This document shows positions 12,627-58,841 of a DNA stretch of 64,000 nucleotides, one piece after another (position 1 is the stretch's first letter; every line of letters begins with the position of its first letter). Origin of the DNA: Agromyces ramosus (GTDB lineage: Bacteria > Actinomycetota > Actinomycetes > Actinomycetales > Microbacteriaceae); contig NZ_JAUSYY010000001.1 of NCBI RefSeq assembly GCF_030817175.1, positions 3,782,001 through 3,846,000 on the forward strand, read 5' to 3'. The position numbers were made by a program, and so were the translations under genes. The notes below the pieces were generated by a model. That model did no database searches. It was given only the letters and a program-made list of their open reading frames with translations, and was not told where the DNA came from.

Positions 12627-13598
12627 TCAAGCTGAGACTGGGGGCGGCACCGTCGCGGCGCCGACCAGGCGGGCGACCAGCTCGTCATACGGTACTCCCG
12701 CGGCCGCGAACATGCGGGGCACCTGAGACGCGGCGGTCATCCCGGGCATCGTGTTGACCTCGTTGAGCACGGGACCGTCAGCGGTGAGGAAGAAGTCCAT
12801 TCGAGCGACTCCGTCGCAGCCGAGTGCGTCGAACATCCTCACGGCCGCTTCCCTCAGGGCCACGCGATCGGTGCTGCCCAGGTCGGCCGGCACCGTGAAG
12901 CGGGCGGTTCCGTCGTACTTGGTGGCCGTGTCGAACAGTCCCTCGGCGTGGATCTCCAACGGCGGTGGCGTCCACCGGCTGCCGTCGGCTTCGCTCAGGA
13001 CCGCGACGTCGATCTCGCGGCCGTACACGACGTCCTCGATGAGGATCCGATCGTCGTACTGAGCAGCGGTGCGGAGCGCCCCACCGAATTCGCCGGCTTC
13101 CCTCACCAATGTGACCCCGAAGCTGGAACCGGCGGAGACCGGCTTGACGACGACCTCGGTCTCGAAACCGATGCCTCCAAGGTCGGCTGCATGCACCAGC
13201 CGCCCGTGGGCGGTCCGTATCCCGACGGCTTCGGCGACGAGCTTGGTCGCCCATTTGTCCATGCCGATCGCTCCGGCACGCACGCCGGAACCGACCACGG
13301 GCTTGTGGGAGAGGGCGCACAGTGCTGCCAGTGTCCCGTCCTCACCCAGCGGGCCGTGGATTGCCGGAAAGACCACATCGGCTCGGGCGAGAAATGGGAG
13401 TGATGCGCTCAGCGAGTCGGCAGCGCTCGCTCCGAGGGGATCTCCGCGCAGTCTCCATCGCCCGTCGCGACCGATGGTGATGGCGGTGACCTCGAACCCG
13501 CCGCGGCGGAGCGCGCCATCGATGGCGGCAGCCGTCGCCAGGGAGACGTCGTGCTCGGCGTTCTGGCCGCCGCCGATGACCAAGACGTGGGGTTTCAT
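12627..13598 (-). CDS. ddl: D-alanine-D-alanine ligase family enzyme in a van-like cluster
   Basis: ATP-grasp ligase joining two D-amino acids to make the peptidoglycan-terminal dipeptide. 323 residues from the ATG at 13598, which overlaps the racemase stop as ATGA. Landmarks: NAEHDVSLATA near the N terminus, HGPLGEDGT, MDKWATK, a substrate-loop segment FDTATKYDG, and C-terminal metal-binding DFFLTADGPVLNEVNTMPG. The Lys-Tyr in the loop is the arrangement of D-Ala-D-Ala ligases, so D-lactate specificity is not indicated; whether D-Ala or D-Ser is the second substrate cannot be read securely. The usual QG after GEDGT is replaced (GEDGTLAAL). Neighbours (racemase, carboxypeptidase, two-component system) resemble glycopeptide-resistance modules. 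Confidence 0.88.
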   Translation of the reverse strand: MKPHVLVIGGGQNAEHDVSLATAAAIDGALRRGGFEVTAITIGRDGRWRLRGDPLGASAADSLSASLPFLARADVVFPAIHGPLGEDGTLAALCALSHKPVVGSGVRAGAIGMDKWATKLVAEAVGIRTAHGRLVHAADLGGIGFETEVVVKPVSAGSSFGVTLVREAGEFGGALRTAAQYDDRILIEDVVYGREIDVAVLSEADGSRWTPPPLEIHAEGLFDTATKYDGTARFTVPADLGSTDRVALREAAVRMFDALGCDGVARMDFFLTADGPVLNEVNTMPGMTAASQVPRMFAAAGVPYDELVARLVGAATVPPPVSA

Positions 13599-14725
13599 GC
13601 GATCGCCCTTCTCACGCGTGCTCCGATGCCAGTGACGATGGTGTGGGGTATGGTTCCGGCCCAGCGAGCCCATTCGTGGATGGTCGGGGTGGGGCCGCCC
13701 TTCGGACCGAACACGGTCGCGATCGTGCCGCGCGGAATCGAATCCGCTCCGGTGTCGATCACGATCTGGTCCATCGAGACGCGCCCGACGATCGGGTAGC
13801 GTCGCCCACGGATCTCCACCGAAGCCTCCGAACAGATCTCTCGCGGTATTCCGTCGGCGTACCCCAGGGGCAGGACACTGAGATTGGTGGATGTCCCGGT
13901 GACGAAGGTGCCGCCGTATCCGACCGGCGTTCCCGCCGCGGCGGTGGCGCCGTGCACGATCGCCGCGGTCAGACGCGCTGCGCCGTGCAGTTCGGTGGTC
14001 CCGGATGGATCGATGCCGACGAGACCCGCCCCGAGGCGGACCATTCCGAAGTGCGTCGCAGGGTCGCACAGCGTTCCCGAGGTTGCAGCCAGATGGGTGA
14101 GCGGGGCACCGAACCCTGCCGCCGTCATCCTTCGCCTGGCGCGGTGCATCTGAGCGACCGCGGACTCGTTGGCCTCGGGTTGCGCCTGATCGGCCAACGG
14201 CAGGTGCCCCATGAGACCCACGACGCGGATGCTCCCTCGCCGCTGCTCCTGCCGTGCGCGCGCGATCAGCGCATCCCAATCGCGCGTGGGGCAGCCCTCA
14301 CGTGCCATGCCGGTGTCCACGTACAGGTGGACTCGAACGTGGGCGGAGCCGTGCTCGAGCAGAGCCTCCAGTTCGTCGATCGAACCGATTGCGACGTCGA
14401 TCCGGTCGGCGGCGGCTGCCTCTGCGTCCACGCCGGACGGGTTCAACCACGTCAGGATCGGCACCGTGAGCCCTGCCGCGCGCAGCCGGGACGCGTCCGC
14501 GATGTCGGTCGTGCCAAGCCAGTCCGCTCCGGCCGCGACCGCGGCCTTCGCGACCGCGATGGCCCCGTGCCCGTACCCATCCGCTTTGACCACCGCCATG
14601 ATCCGCGCACGGGTCCGTCGCCGAGCGATCGCCACGTTCTGTGCGACCGCCTCGGAGAGAGTCTGCAAGGTGGGCTGCGAGAGGTGTCGGAGGCCGGGAC
14701 GGCGGAAGTCGACAGTGACGGTCAT
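13595..14725 (-). CDS. alr: Alanine racemase
   Basis: PLP-dependent racemase providing D-alanine (or, in VanT-like enzymes, D-serine). 376 residues from the ATG at 14725. The PLP lysine is in VVKADGYGHG near residue 48, and the catalytic-tyrosine region of the C-terminal beta domain is present (LGYADGIPR, GRVSMDQIVID). It has no N-terminal membrane domain, unlike enterococcal VanT, so it is soluble. It overlaps the carboxypeptidase stop and the ligase start as ATGA at both ends, so the three genes are translationally coupled. A housekeeping alr probably exists elsewhere; this copy looks dedicated to the cluster. Confidence 0.9.
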   Translation of the reverse strand: MTVTVDFRRPGLRHLSQPTLQTLSEAVAQNVAIARRRTRARIMAVVKADGYGHGAIAVAKAAVAAGADWLGTTDIADASRLRAAGLTVPILTWLNPSGVDAEAAAADRIDVAIGSIDELEALLEHGSAHVRVHLYVDTGMAREGCPTRDWDALIARARQEQRRGSIRVVGLMGHLPLADQAQPEANESAVAQMHRARRRMTAAGFGAPLTHLAATSGTLCDPATHFGMVRLGAGLVGIDPSGTTELHGAARLTAAIVHGATAAAGTPVGYGGTFVTGTSTNLSVLPLGYADGIPREICSEASVEIRGRRYPIVGRVSMDQIVIDTGADSIPRGTIATVFGPKGGPTPTIHEWARWAGTIPHTIVTGIGARVRRAIA

Positions 14726-15375
14726 TGCTGCATCCTCGGGTCTTGCGTGGGGTCGGCGAACATGGGTGGACAACCACGGTCGATCGCCTCTGGACGCAGT
14801 TCGTAGTGCCACGATTCGTTGCCGTAGATCTGGCACAGCCCGTACCCGGCGCCGTGTTCTGACAGCCACGCCGTGGCATCGTAGGACCCGATGTCGACCG
14901 CTTTCCCGGACACGTGGGCGGAGGTGTCCGCCGTGGCGACCCAACGCGCGGCTTCCTCTTCGGACCCGTAGTCGGAGACCGCCTCACGAAGCAGTTGATC
15001 CTGGTACTCAGCGGAACGCCATCCGCTGTTGACGGTGAACTCCACGCCGTCGTCCGCGGCAGCCATCGCCGCCGCGCGAACGGCGTGGAGCAGATCCGGG
15101 TCGAGGTTGGCGACGGCGGGATAGTCGTCGTCGAATACCGACACGCCGCCGGGCAGGATGCCGTCGTGCTCGCTGATTGCGCCGTCATCCGCCGCGATCG
15201 TCGTGCCCGGGTCGCCGGGAGGGACCTCGCTGAACGAGTGCGCCGATGACGACGCCGGCTCCGAGAGCTGAGAGACAACGGTTCCCGTGACCGCAGTCGC
15301 GACGACGACCAACCCGAGGGCGAAGAGCCCGAGACGTCTGCGGGGCCGTGTTCGTGCTGTTGCCGTTCGACTCAT
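14722..15375 (-). CDS. VanY-like D,D-carboxypeptidase (M15 family)
   Basis: Zinc peptidase that trims the terminal D-Ala from peptidoglycan stems. 217 residues from the ATG at 15375 (a TTG at 15387 is also in frame). An N-terminal basic stretch and a hydrophobic segment (LGLFALGLVVVATAVTGTVV) form a membrane anchor or signal peptide, placing the catalytic domain outside. The M15B motifs are complete: SGWRS, SAHVSGKAVDIG (His and Asp zinc ligands) and SWHYEL (catalytic Glu region and third His). It is the first gene of the coupled carboxypeptidase-racemase-ligase operon and is divergent from the two-component system, with an 86-base shared promoter region. Confidence 0.9.
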   Translation of the reverse strand: MSRTATARTRPRRRLGLFALGLVVVATAVTGTVVSQLSEPASSSAHSFSEVPPGDPGTTIAADDGAISEHDGILPGGVSVFDDDYPAVANLDPDLLHAVRAAAMAAADDGVEFTVNSGWRSAEYQDQLLREAVSDYGSEEEAARWVATADTSAHVSGKAVDIGSYDATAWLSEHGAGYGLCQIYGNESWHYELRPEAIDRGCPPMFADPTQDPRMQQ

Positions 15376-52911: not shown

Positions 52912-54279
<1,368 letters not shown>

Positions 54280-54286
54280 GCCTGCG

Positions 54287-55543
54287 GTGCGCTACGCGCC
54301 GGCGATCCTCGTCGGCAGGCTCACCCGATTCGCCGCCCGGCTGCGTAAGCCCGGCGGCGGATCGGCCGTTCCGGGCCTCGTGGTCAACCGCATCGCGACC
54401 GGGTACCTGAAGCGCACGCTCTCGGGCTTCCCGCAGGGGCTCGTCGTGGTCTCGGGGTCGAGCGGCAAGTCGACGACGACGAAGATGCTCGTCGCGGTCC
54501 TCCGTGCGCACGGCGTCGACGTCTTCACCAACCCGTCGACGGCGAACATCAGCCAGGGCCTGACCTCGGCGCTCCTCGAACGATCCGACTGGCGCGGCCG
54601 CGTGCCCGGCGACGTCGCCGTGCTCGAGATGGACGAGGGGCACGGCGCGCTCGTCATGCAGGGCGTCGACGCCCGCGTCGTGGCGCTCACGAACGTCATG
54701 GTCGACCAGATCGACCGCTTCCACGACTCCGAGATGGTCGCGGGCATGCTCGCGCGCATCGCCGCGCGCGCCGGCGAGGCGATCGTGGTGAACGCCGACG
54801 ACGCCTACCTCGAGCGGCTCGCCGCCCGGGTCGGTCCGGGCATCGCGGTGCACCGGTTCGGCGTGGCGCAGCCGGTGCTCGAGTCCGCCCCGCGTGGCCT
54901 CGGGTACACCGAGACCACCACCGCTCGCCTGGCTCCGGGCGACGGCGTTCGCGTCGCGTCGGTCGACGGCGCCTCGGCCGTGCTCGACGACGACGGGGCA
55001 TCCGTCGCCATCTCGCTGCCCGCGCGCGGCATCCACTACGCCGTCGACGCCGCCGCCGCCTACGCGACCGCCAAGACCGTGCTCGGCGACCGGTTCTCGC
55101 GCGAGACGGCCGCTGCGGCCCTCACCGCGATCCCGGCCGTCTTCGGTCGCGGCGAGCGGGTGAAGGTGCGCGGGCACGACGTCGAGTTCGTGCTGGTGCA
55201 GAACCCCGCGAGCTACCAGCTGAACGTCGACAGCATCGCGCCGGGCACGGAGCAGATCCTGTTCGCGATGGGTTCCGATGTGCGCGATCCCTCGTATTTC
55301 TGGCCGACGGATGCCTCGTCGCTCCGCCGTGTCTCGATCGTGAGCGGCTCCAAGGCCGCCGAAGCCGCACTGATGCTCGCGTACAACGGTGTGGCCATCG
55401 ACCGCGTGGAACCCGATCTCGCACGCGCCCTCGACGACTTCCTCGCCGCCCCCGCTCCAGCCACCGGCCTGAAGACGATCGTCTTCACCGCCGATTCGAT
55501 GCGGCGCACGCGTGCCCACCTCGGACTCACGGGAGCCGAATGA
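54287..55543 (+). CDS. murT: MurT-like Mur ligase (subunit of lipid II isoglutaminyl synthase family)
   Basis: 418 residues from GTG 54287, eight bases after sigA. In its family this ATP-dependent ligase amidates the D-Glu alpha-carboxyl of lipid II with ammonia from GatD. Seen here: P-loop VSGSSGKSTTTKML, the Mur central domain (VLEMDEGHGALV), and the C-terminal DUF1727-type domain with VQNPASYQLN and SDVRDPSYFW. The usual NRTGAN reads NPSTAN. Canonical MurT proteins carry a four-cysteine zinc ribbon in the central domain; this one contains no cysteine at all. The start of gatD overlaps its end (ATGA). See the finding on the pair. Confidence 0.85.
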   Translation: MRYAPAILVGRLTRFAARLRKPGGGSAVPGLVVNRIATGYLKRTLSGFPQGLVVVSGSSGKSTTTKMLVAVLRAHGVDVFTNPSTANISQGLTSALLERSDWRGRVPGDVAVLEMDEGHGALVMQGVDARVVALTNVMVDQIDRFHDSEMVAGMLARIAARAGEAIVVNADDAYLERLAARVGPGIAVHRFGVAQPVLESAPRGLGYTETTTARLAPGDGVRVASVDGASAVLDDDGASVAISLPARGIHYAVDAAAAYATAKTVLGDRFSRETAAAALTAIPAVFGRGERVKVRGHDVEFVLVQNPASYQLNVDSIAPGTEQILFAMGSDVRDPSYFWPTDASSLRRVSIVSGSKAAEAALMLAYNGVAIDRVEPDLARALDDFLAAPAPATGLKTIVFTADSMRRTRAHLGLTGAE

Positions 55544-56283
55544 CCCTCGCCATCGTCTCCATGCTCCCGACCCTGCACAACACCAACGGCGACGCCGAGA
55601 ATGCCGCCGTGCTCGTCGCGCGGGCGCGGTGGGCCGGTCTCGACGCCGAGGTCGTCGAGGTCGAATCGGTCACCGACCTCCCCGCGCGGGTCGACGCCGT
55701 CGTGCTCGGTTCCGGCAGCGACGCGTCGCTCGAGGTCAGTCGCTCGGCGCTCCTCACCATGCATGACGAGTTCCGCCGGTGGGGCACCGAGGGCGTGCCC
55801 ATCCTCGCCGTCGGCACTGGGTGGGAACTGCTCAGCTGGGGCATCGAACGGCGCGACGGCGTCGCCGTCGAGGGGCTGGGCATCCTGCCCGGCAGGGCGG
55901 TGCCCCGGCAGTCGCGAGTGGCGGGTGACCTCATCATCGCGTCACCGCGCTACGGTGCCCTCGTCGGCTTCGAGAACCATTCGCGCGACTACGTCGGTGC
56001 CGAGGGCTCACCGCTCGGGCGGGTCAGGGCGGGCCACGGCAACGGTCGCGACTCGGGGCAGGAGGGCGTCGTCATGGGCGAGGTCTTCGGCACCCACCTG
56101 CACGGACCCGTGCTCGCGAAGAACCCGGCGTTCGCCGATCACCTGCTCGAGATCGCCGCGCGCCGCAGCGGGGCCGACTACATCCCTGGTGCGCAGGCGC
56201 TCGTCGTCGATGAGTACGCGGCGACCGCACGCCGGGCGCAACTCGCCGCGGCCGGGGTCGCGGCATCCGCTGCGCGTCCCTGA
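55540..56283 (+). CDS. gatD: GatD-like class I glutamine amidotransferase homologue lacking the catalytic cysteine
   Basis: 247 residues with the class I amidotransferase fold of GatD, the glutaminase subunit of the MurT/GatD complex. N terminus LAIVSMLPTLHNTNGDAENA, oxyanion region VVLGSGSD, and the histidine motif FGTHLHGPVLAKNP are recognisable. The nucleophile elbow, normally V-C-G-G-Y-Q-L-L, reads V-G-T-G-W-E-L-L, with Gly92 (codon GGC) at the cysteine position; there is no cysteine anywhere in the protein. Glutamine hydrolysis by the known mechanism is therefore not possible. The reading frame is otherwise intact and translationally coupled to murT, so this looks like a repurposed subunit and not decay. 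Confidence 0.85.
   Translation: MTLAIVSMLPTLHNTNGDAENAAVLVARARWAGLDAEVVEVESVTDLPARVDAVVLGSGSDASLEVSRSALLTMHDEFRRWGTEGVPILAVGTGWELLSWGIERRDGVAVEGLGILPGRAVPRQSRVAGDLIIASPRYGALVGFENHSRDYVGAEGSPLGRVRAGHGNGRDSGQEGVVMGEVFGTHLHGPVLAKNPAFADHLLEIAARRSGADYIPGAQALVVDEYAATARRAQLAAAGVAASAARP

Positions 56284-56762: not shown

Positions 56763-58841
<2,079 letters not shown>

Follow-up and report, generated by a model that had tools for sequence, protein, structure and literature searches.

What does an isoglutaminyl synthase do once its glutaminase subunit has lost the catalytic cysteine? The question is raised by a murT/gatD-like gene pair in a 64,000-nucleotide stretch of Agromyces ramosus DNA (NCBI RefSeq assembly GCF_030817175.1, contig NZ_JAUSYY010000001.1, positions 3,782,001 to 3,846,000 of the forward strand), which was analysed as a whole and is called the window below. 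The pair lies between a sigA-like and a gyrB/parE-like gene, an interval that we refer to as the slot. Judging from sequence comparisons, the glutaminase half of the complex has been lost and the ligase half kept, and in a number of relatives an unrelated ligase occupies the slot, which points to a wall-building step. We consider the chances about even that the complex serves B-type wall synthesis as an amino-acid ligase, with GatD acting as a scaffold.

A MurT/GatD pair without a glutaminase nucleophile

A preliminary description of this DNA had held that GatD lost its glutaminase cysteine and that the pair is free of cysteine altogether. This is borne out: neither protein contains a Cys residue, and Gly92 occupies the position of the nucleophile. 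The elbow of GatD reads ILAVGTGWELLS, against TICGGYQFLG in Staphylococcus aureus GatD, which places a glycine opposite Cys94. The same change, C94G, abolished glutamine-dependent amidation by the S. aureus complex and left ammonia-dependent amidation at pH 8.5 unaffected, as reported in PMC3266927. The features of the locus, in window positions, are as follows.

54287..55543, + strand: murT-like gene, GTG start, 418 amino acids, no Cys; Mur ligase middle domain and MurT C-terminal domain
54455..54478, + strand: MurT ATP-binding loop GSSGKSTT
54701..54703, + strand: MurT Val139, at the place of the gate Arg (Streptococcus pneumoniae Arg135)
55286..55288, + strand: MurT Asp334, kept, equivalent to S. 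aureus Asp349 of the shared triad
55540..56283, + strand: gatD-like gene, ATG start, 247 amino acids, no Cys; GATase_3 fold without nucleophile
55585..55587, + strand: GatD Asn16, at the place of the channel-plugging Tyr (S. pneumoniae Tyr30)
55813..55815, + strand: GatD Gly92, at the place of the glutaminase Cys (S. aureus Cys94)
56101..56103, + strand: GatD His188, the catalytic His, kept (S. aureus His189)
52912..54279, + strand: sigA-like gene, read as principal sigma factor; left border of the slot, 7 bases before murT
56763..58841, + strand: gyrB/parE-like gene (identity by reading); right border of the slot

The fold, the histidine motif and the coupling to murT, which had likewise been described as kept, are indeed present. 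GatD matches GATase_3 and carries the motif THLHGP, its gene overlaps murT in an ATGA at 55540–55543, and its AlphaFold2 model (predicted local distance difference test score, pLDDT, of 96.5) can be superimposed on S. aureus GatD (6gs2_A) with a template modelling (TM) score of 0.89 and a root-mean-square deviation of 2.0. For MurT, the model has a mean pLDDT of 94.2, and the residues for ATP, Mg2+ and the acceptor carboxylate (K61, N87, E114, D116-E117) are all present; the protein matches Mur_ligase_M, and its MurT_C score is 24.8 bits against the Pfam cut-off of 25 bits and 28.1 bits in the genome scan. The nearest NCBIfam models are both subunits of isoglutaminyl synthase. Their cut-offs are missed (80.2 of 800 bits for MurT, 86.4 of 400 for GatD), which says little because none of the 296 genomes in a class-level sample passes the GatD cut-off. 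A single MurT_C match was found in the A. ramosus genome, in keeping with the expectation that it holds no second canonical pair. Six Mur_ligase_M matches were read as MurC, MurD, MurE, MurF, FolC and the window MurT, and three GATase_3 matches, assigned at the level of the family match, exist besides the window GatD. The named proteins among the nearest relatives of the pair are mostly from Agromyces.

To see what accompanies the missing nucleophile, pairs whose GatD lacks the cysteine (no-Cys pairs) were compared with Cys-bearing ones, 82 of the main no-Cys type against 150. Three residues are present in every Cys-bearing pair and in none of the 82: the Cys of GatD, its Tyr equivalent to S. 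pneumoniae Tyr30, and the Arg of MurT equivalent to S. pneumoniae Arg135. In the S. pneumoniae complex Tyr30 plugs the ammonia channel, with 7% of activity left in a Y30A variant, Arg135 flanks the gate, and Asn85, Asp112 and Glu113 serve the acceptor and Mg2+ (PMC6085368). The ligase residues Lys61, Asn87, Glu114, Asp116-Glu117, Asp140 and Arg144 of MurT, on the other hand, are invariant in both sets (82/82 and 150/150). Asp334, which belongs to the catalytic triad that, along with a DNAAD loop, is described for MurT/GatD as shared (PMC6113224), is found in 82/82 and 147/150 pairs, the other three being gaps. The stretch around it (MurT 325–341) spans 17 residues in 81 of the 82 main-type pairs versus 20 in 147 of the 150 Cys-bearing ones, and a new QxN motif appears at MurT 311–313 in 75 of the 82. 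Eight further, divergent no-Cys pairs have no Cys, His or Tyr at these places in GatD; their MurT has the Arg135 equivalent in six cases and that of Asp349 in none.

The S. aureus variant invites the reading that the pair has remained an amidase in which MurT places free ammonia on the alpha-carboxyl of a D-glutamate (D-Glu) that carries no bridge and GatD serves only to stabilise MurT. Ammonia-dependent amidation is just what C94G leaves in place, yet the loss of channel Tyr and gate Arg in 82/82 pairs, the shortened loop and the QxN motif amount to more than the loss of a glutaminase. The authors of PMC3266927, moreover, hold glutamine rather than ammonia to be the cellular donor because of the neutral pH. 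We therefore regard a surviving amidase as unlikely.

The four-cysteine zinc ribbon is a different matter. It is missing from the window MurT, as had been described, but does not belong to the change: in 121 of the 150 Cys-bearing pairs MurT has three Cys or fewer and cannot form such a ribbon either, so its absence is unlinked to the loss of the glutaminase, and ribbon loss was rejected as part of the account. One locus (L073) even combines a Cys-bearing GatD with a MurT devoid of Cys.

Reach and maintenance of the cysteine loss

Within a sample of 149 genomes of the Microbacteriaceae, GatD was detected in 116, and 105 MurT/GatD loci from 100 genomes were read. The GatD cysteine is absent from 90 of these loci and present in 15 (L132, with an alignment gap at this place, was counted as no-Cys since its sequence has no Cys). 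The catalytic His remains in 57 of those without the Cys, compared with 15/15 of the Cys-bearing loci, and MurT adjoins GatD in every family locus read, which form part of a set where this holds for 140/140. Neither protein has a Cys in 47 of the 90 no-Cys loci; this is true of none of the 15 Cys-bearing ones and of none among 135 Cys-bearing loci from elsewhere, which include 24 from named Leucobacter and Canibacter. The absence of Cys from both proteins thus exceeds chance, and the loss of the GatD cysteine is no local accident.

Outside the family, Cys and His are both present in 111/111 loci read, a set made up of 55 from profile searches, taken best matches first (5 repeat a genome), and 56 from named Micrococcaceae and others, drawn from a pattern scan biased towards the Cys motif; some 50 further order-level and more than 100 class-level matches lie beyond it. 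Among the matches listed in three protein searches (241 proteins), 228 lack the cysteine and 13 have it. All 14 named proteins inspected from these lists, from Agromyces, Clavibacter, Leifsonia, Pseudoclavibacter, Planctomonas, Cryobacterium and Luethyella, are without it, and the four Clavibacter GatDs among them have lost the His as well.

Some genomes hold two pairs. Second no-Cys pairs that do not adjoin sigA were seen beside a main-type pair in genomes G111 (L111) and G145 (L113), and genomes G050, G113 and G060 carry a Cys-bearing pair away from sigA together with a no-Cys pair after sigA (L092, L093 and L098 with L095, L080 and L083).

A MurT tree was built from 95 rows by a quick search, with the Shimodaira–Hasegawa-like approximate likelihood ratio test (SH-aLRT) as its only measure of support. 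The 58 no-Cys rows form one side of a branch with an SH-aLRT of 100, and the tree shows a single change of the Cys state. The nearest relatives of this main clade are Cys-bearing pairs of Leucobacter, Arthrobacter and others. Cys-bearing members of the family (Leucobacter, Canibacter and others) are mostly placed among other Micrococcales; three of them (L120, L122, L137) group with the more distant L144. A second group (L127, L128, L130, L133–L135), in which MurT keeps the ribbon Cys and GatD has neither Cys nor His, stands apart from the main clade; those of its MurTs that were read hold six Cys, and L127, L133 and L134 follow sigA, with an ATP-grasp gene. Trees that include this group show two changes of the Cys state. 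A single origin of the loss was accordingly set aside, on a borderline result: a single clade is rejected by the approximately unbiased (AU) test at p-AU 0.0416, in trees where long branches meet.

Ratios of nonsynonymous to synonymous substitution rates (dN/dS) range from 0.058 to 0.356 in seven no-Cys comparisons, with GatD above MurT in all seven. The contrast between the two subunits is modest because GatD is also the higher one in 4 of 6 Cys-bearing comparisons. The difference is clearer in the identities: at a MurT identity of 0.55–0.65, mean GatD identity is 0.465 among no-Cys pairs versus 0.575 among Cys-bearing ones. By these sequence measures, the GatD of no-Cys pairs is constrained, though less than in working pairs. 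In one Agromyces genome (G636, C1:2739017-2739753), GatD is read in two overlapping frames next to an intact MurT, owing to either a frameshift or a sequencing error.

Could the pair be a decaying or purely regulatory relic? The faster evolution of GatD, the missing catalytic His in 33 of the 90 no-Cys loci (gaps included) and the split GatD of G636 would fit decay. Against this stand dN/dS values of at most 0.356 for both proteins, ligase residues that are kept without exception in 82 pairs, and the upkeep of the pair across the family, and we consider a relic very improbable.

The slot between sigA and gyrB

The position of the pair differs between the two kinds of loci: sigA lies directly upstream in 83 of the 90 no-Cys loci versus 0 of the 15 Cys-bearing family loci. 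The next recognised gene downstream of the 90 no-Cys pairs is gyrB in 52 cases, an Alr-like gene in 25 and an ATP-grasp gene in 4, with none recognised in 9. One Agromyces genome (G327) has no MurT/GatD; between its sigA and gyrB lie a CofE-like and an ATP-grasp gene instead. A CofE-like gene directly follows sigA in 17 of the 20 MurT-less genomes that were fetched, the others being G017, G045 and G047, the last of which has neither ligase and groups with Leucobacter and Canibacter in a 16S tree. These 17 slots hold an ATP-grasp gene in 15 cases and an Alr-like gene in 11.

Counting a CofE-like match with E below 1e-110 as strong, we found one in 21 of the 149 family genomes, none of which has MurT. 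Among the other 128, MurT is present in 122 (108 strong and 14 weak matches) and 6 have neither; of the weak MurT matches, 11 were seen beside GatD, one (G097) was placed by coordinates only, and two (G005, G120) rest on the match itself. Fisher's test on these counts gives p 1.5e-20, although related genomes are not independent of each other. Both states of the slot occur within eight genera: g1 (Agromyces), g7, g9, g54, g55, g71, g77 and g78. In g78, the Alr-like genes of a MurT slot (G096) and a CofE slot (G293) encode proteins 62% identical, which indicates that the companion stayed while the ligase changed. The two CofE-like proteins that were scanned match PF01996 (56.7 and 39.3 versus 25 bits) and fall far below the cut-off of the CofE equivalog TIGR01916 (35.9 and 24.2 versus 180.65 bits). 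The mechanism of CofE has been likened to that of the non-homologous MurD (PMC10861534).

Two candidate explanations were discarded here. An extra Mur ligase does not replace MurT, since 21 of 23 MurT-less genomes hold only five Mur_ligase_M genes (split matches were taken as one in G327 and G128); the exceptions are G018 with seven and G020 with six. The patchy absence of the pair was dropped as proof against a role in the wall once the exchange with the CofE-like ligase was seen. An amidase could take this absence from some genomes as fitting an accessory modification, yet both the companions in the slot and the swap with the CofE-like ligase, the namesake of which attaches an amino acid, point to an amino acid.

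The Alr-like proteins of the slot are 27–34% identical to the window's own alr product and up to 63% identical among themselves, and all 16 have the Lys that binds pyridoxal 5'-phosphate (PLP). In the slot of one CofE-type genome (G053; L347, 4505-5782, − strand), a diaminobutyrate transaminase of the EctB-like kind (TIGR02407, 603 bits versus a cut-off of 552.2) stands beside CofE-like, Alr-like and ATP-grasp genes. Diaminobutyrate is a wall diamino acid in, for example, Clavibacter michiganensis and Rhodoluna. The alr gene of the window itself (13598-14983, − strand; TIGR00492, 230.8 bits; PLP Lys and second Tyr present) lies about 40 kb before the slot and is probably a housekeeping gene.

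Another possibility is that the MurT/GatD ligase, and the CofE-like one likewise, acts on some other carboxylate or polymer, such as the free carboxyl of a bridge amino acid or a wall glycopolymer. The ATPgrasp_ST protein, named for sugar transfer and found in the same slot, would suit this, as would qimC of Streptococcus pyogenes, a CofE-like gene in a wall-modification operon whose role was unclear to the authors who reported it (PMC13059722). The acceptor-carboxylate Asn and the Mg2+-binding Asp-Glu of MurT, however, are kept in 82/82 pairs and fit D-Glu as the acceptor, which makes a different target rather unlikely in our view.

A putative amino-acid ligase and its known relatives

If the complex is an amino-acid ligase, its glutaminase subunit would be a pseudoenzyme attached to a ligase of the MurT type. 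MurT would bind ATP and activate a carboxylate of a wall precursor as an acyl phosphate; the likeliest such group is the D-Glu alpha-carboxyl of a lipid-linked precursor. MurT would then join this carboxylate to an amine, no longer to ammonia made by GatD. This amine would most likely be an amino acid of the B-type wall, either a diamino acid (diaminobutyrate or ornithine) or glycine; GatD would be retained as a structural subunit, and in other members of the family the CofE-like ligase of the slot would do the same job. What the sequences show is the loss of the Cys, Tyr and Arg, the kept ligase residues, purifying selection, the slot and the exchange, whereas the reaction, the amine and the place in the wall are inferred from them. 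In vitro, S. aureus MurT is reported to be able to take the place of MurE, and the attachment of putrescine to D-Glu in Cyanophora, at a stage bound to the membrane, is cited in that paper as well (PMC3266927). With the ligase half intact, the ammonia half gone and a CofE-like enzyme as stand-in, the simplest reaction that the two ligases could have in common would link an amino acid to D-Glu at its alpha-carboxyl.

How does this proposal, first made in the preliminary description, agree with the distribution of wall types? To our knowledge, the whole Microbacteriaceae family, whose members live in soil and on plants, has a type B wall, with an unusual kind of cross-link. A loss of the cysteine confined to B-type lineages had been predicted, and the loss is indeed seen only in this family (0/111 loci read outside it, 56 of them from the scan biased towards the Cys motif). 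The corollary that no B-type relative keeps the cysteine fails: Leucobacter chironomi, L. musarum and L. celer have type B walls (PMC4511665, PMC4804768), and their GatDs (L232, L242 and L233) retain it. For a complex turned to bridge formation speak the family-only loss, the B2gamma wall reported for Agromyces aureus (PMC5217419), the kept ligase and lost ammonia parts, and a slot shared with other ligase genes, racemase-like genes and, in one genome, a diaminobutyrate gene; the cysteine of B-type Leucobacter speaks against it.

Several other observations also count against an amino-acid ligase encoded in the slot. For B2gamma Clavibacter michiganensis, "amidation or hydroxylation of D-Glu" has been reported (PMC9603630), at odds with the expectation that amidated D-Glu would be missing and, in an organism whose GatD lacks Cys and His, a point in favour of a surviving amidase. 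S. aureus GatD/MurT, according to the donor results given in PMC3266927, accepted no nitrogen donor besides glutamine except ammonia. Leucobacter edaphi (G144), which belongs to a B-type genus, has sigA next to gyrB, with no slot ligase and no CofE-like match, and a Cys-bearing MurT/GatD away from the slot. MurT and the CofE-like ligase are not strict alternatives either, because they occur together in two genomes of genus g50 (G049 and G112; L131 and L129), where a weaker CofE-like gene (E ~1e-45) lies directly upstream of a divergent pair whose MurT carries the ribbon and whose GatD lacks both Cys and His, and in G134, which has a MurT slot plus a weaker CofE-like match elsewhere; the 6 of 149 genomes without both belong here too. 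As for the companions, the second catalytic Tyr is present in only 3 of the 16 Alr-like proteins, so these neighbours may not be racemases, and their interpretation as plain alanine racemases is weakened; the diaminobutyrate transaminase was found in the slot of a single genome.

Taken together, the Leucobacter cysteine and the Clavibacter D-Glu modification imply that the pair is not the sole bridge ligase of all B-type bacteria, and it may be one of several. Because Leucobacter combines a B-type wall with a genome read to hold no slot ligase, amino-acid joining by a slot ligase cannot be the only way, and the putative bridge ligase is not universal among B-type organisms, as L. edaphi illustrates. 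Within these bounds we tentatively propose, at somewhat below even chances, that the slot encodes the enzyme that starts the B-type bridge by attaching an amino acid to the D-Glu alpha-carboxyl. This enzyme would be either a glutaminase-dead MurT/GatD, with at least one origin and perhaps two, or a CofE-like ligase, the two being interchangeable.

An open-access literature search, at the level of its listings, brought up no published link between GatD and B-type walls and no paper naming an enzyme of the B-type bridge, and we know of no family described as a B-type bridge ligase. If true, the proposal would for the first time assign an enzyme to the B-type cross-bridge, and it would mean that ligases of unrelated families have repeatedly replaced each other in a single chromosomal slot. 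The pair also provides an example of a glutaminase that turned into a pseudoenzyme and stayed under selection. The exchange narrows the search to a few genes, each open to individual testing, and slot swaps within a genus are natural pairs for the comparison of walls. UniRef names relatives of the window GatD lipid II isoglutaminyl synthase, which is very likely wrong as regards the use of glutamine.

Among known systems, the pair most resembles the MurT/GatD isoglutaminyl synthases of S. aureus (6gs2), S. pneumoniae (6fqb) and S. pyogenes (9sq9), with which it shares the paired genes, both folds by sequence (that of GatD also by model), the ATP and acceptor residues of MurT, the GatD His and the triad Asp of MurT. 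It differs from them in lacking the Cys nucleophile, the channel Tyr, the gate Arg and the zinc ribbon, and in having a shortened loop, the QxN motif and a place after sigA. The Cys-bearing pairs of Leucobacter, Arthrobacter and other relatives are nearest in the MurT tree and mostly also short of the Cys for a ribbon; unlike the no-Cys pairs, they possess an intact glutaminase and gate, and none of the 15 Cys-bearing loci of the family adjoins sigA. The CofE-like ligase (PF01996) occupies the same slot, and its namesake couples an amine to a carboxylate; it belongs to a family unrelated to MurT and falls far under the cut-off for CofE itself. MurD, MurE and FolC, finally, have the same middle domain and acyl-phosphate chemistry and add amino acids without a glutaminase, in contrast to which the window pair has a MurT-type C-terminal domain and a GatD partner, with a lipid-linked acceptor in the case of the S. 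aureus pair.

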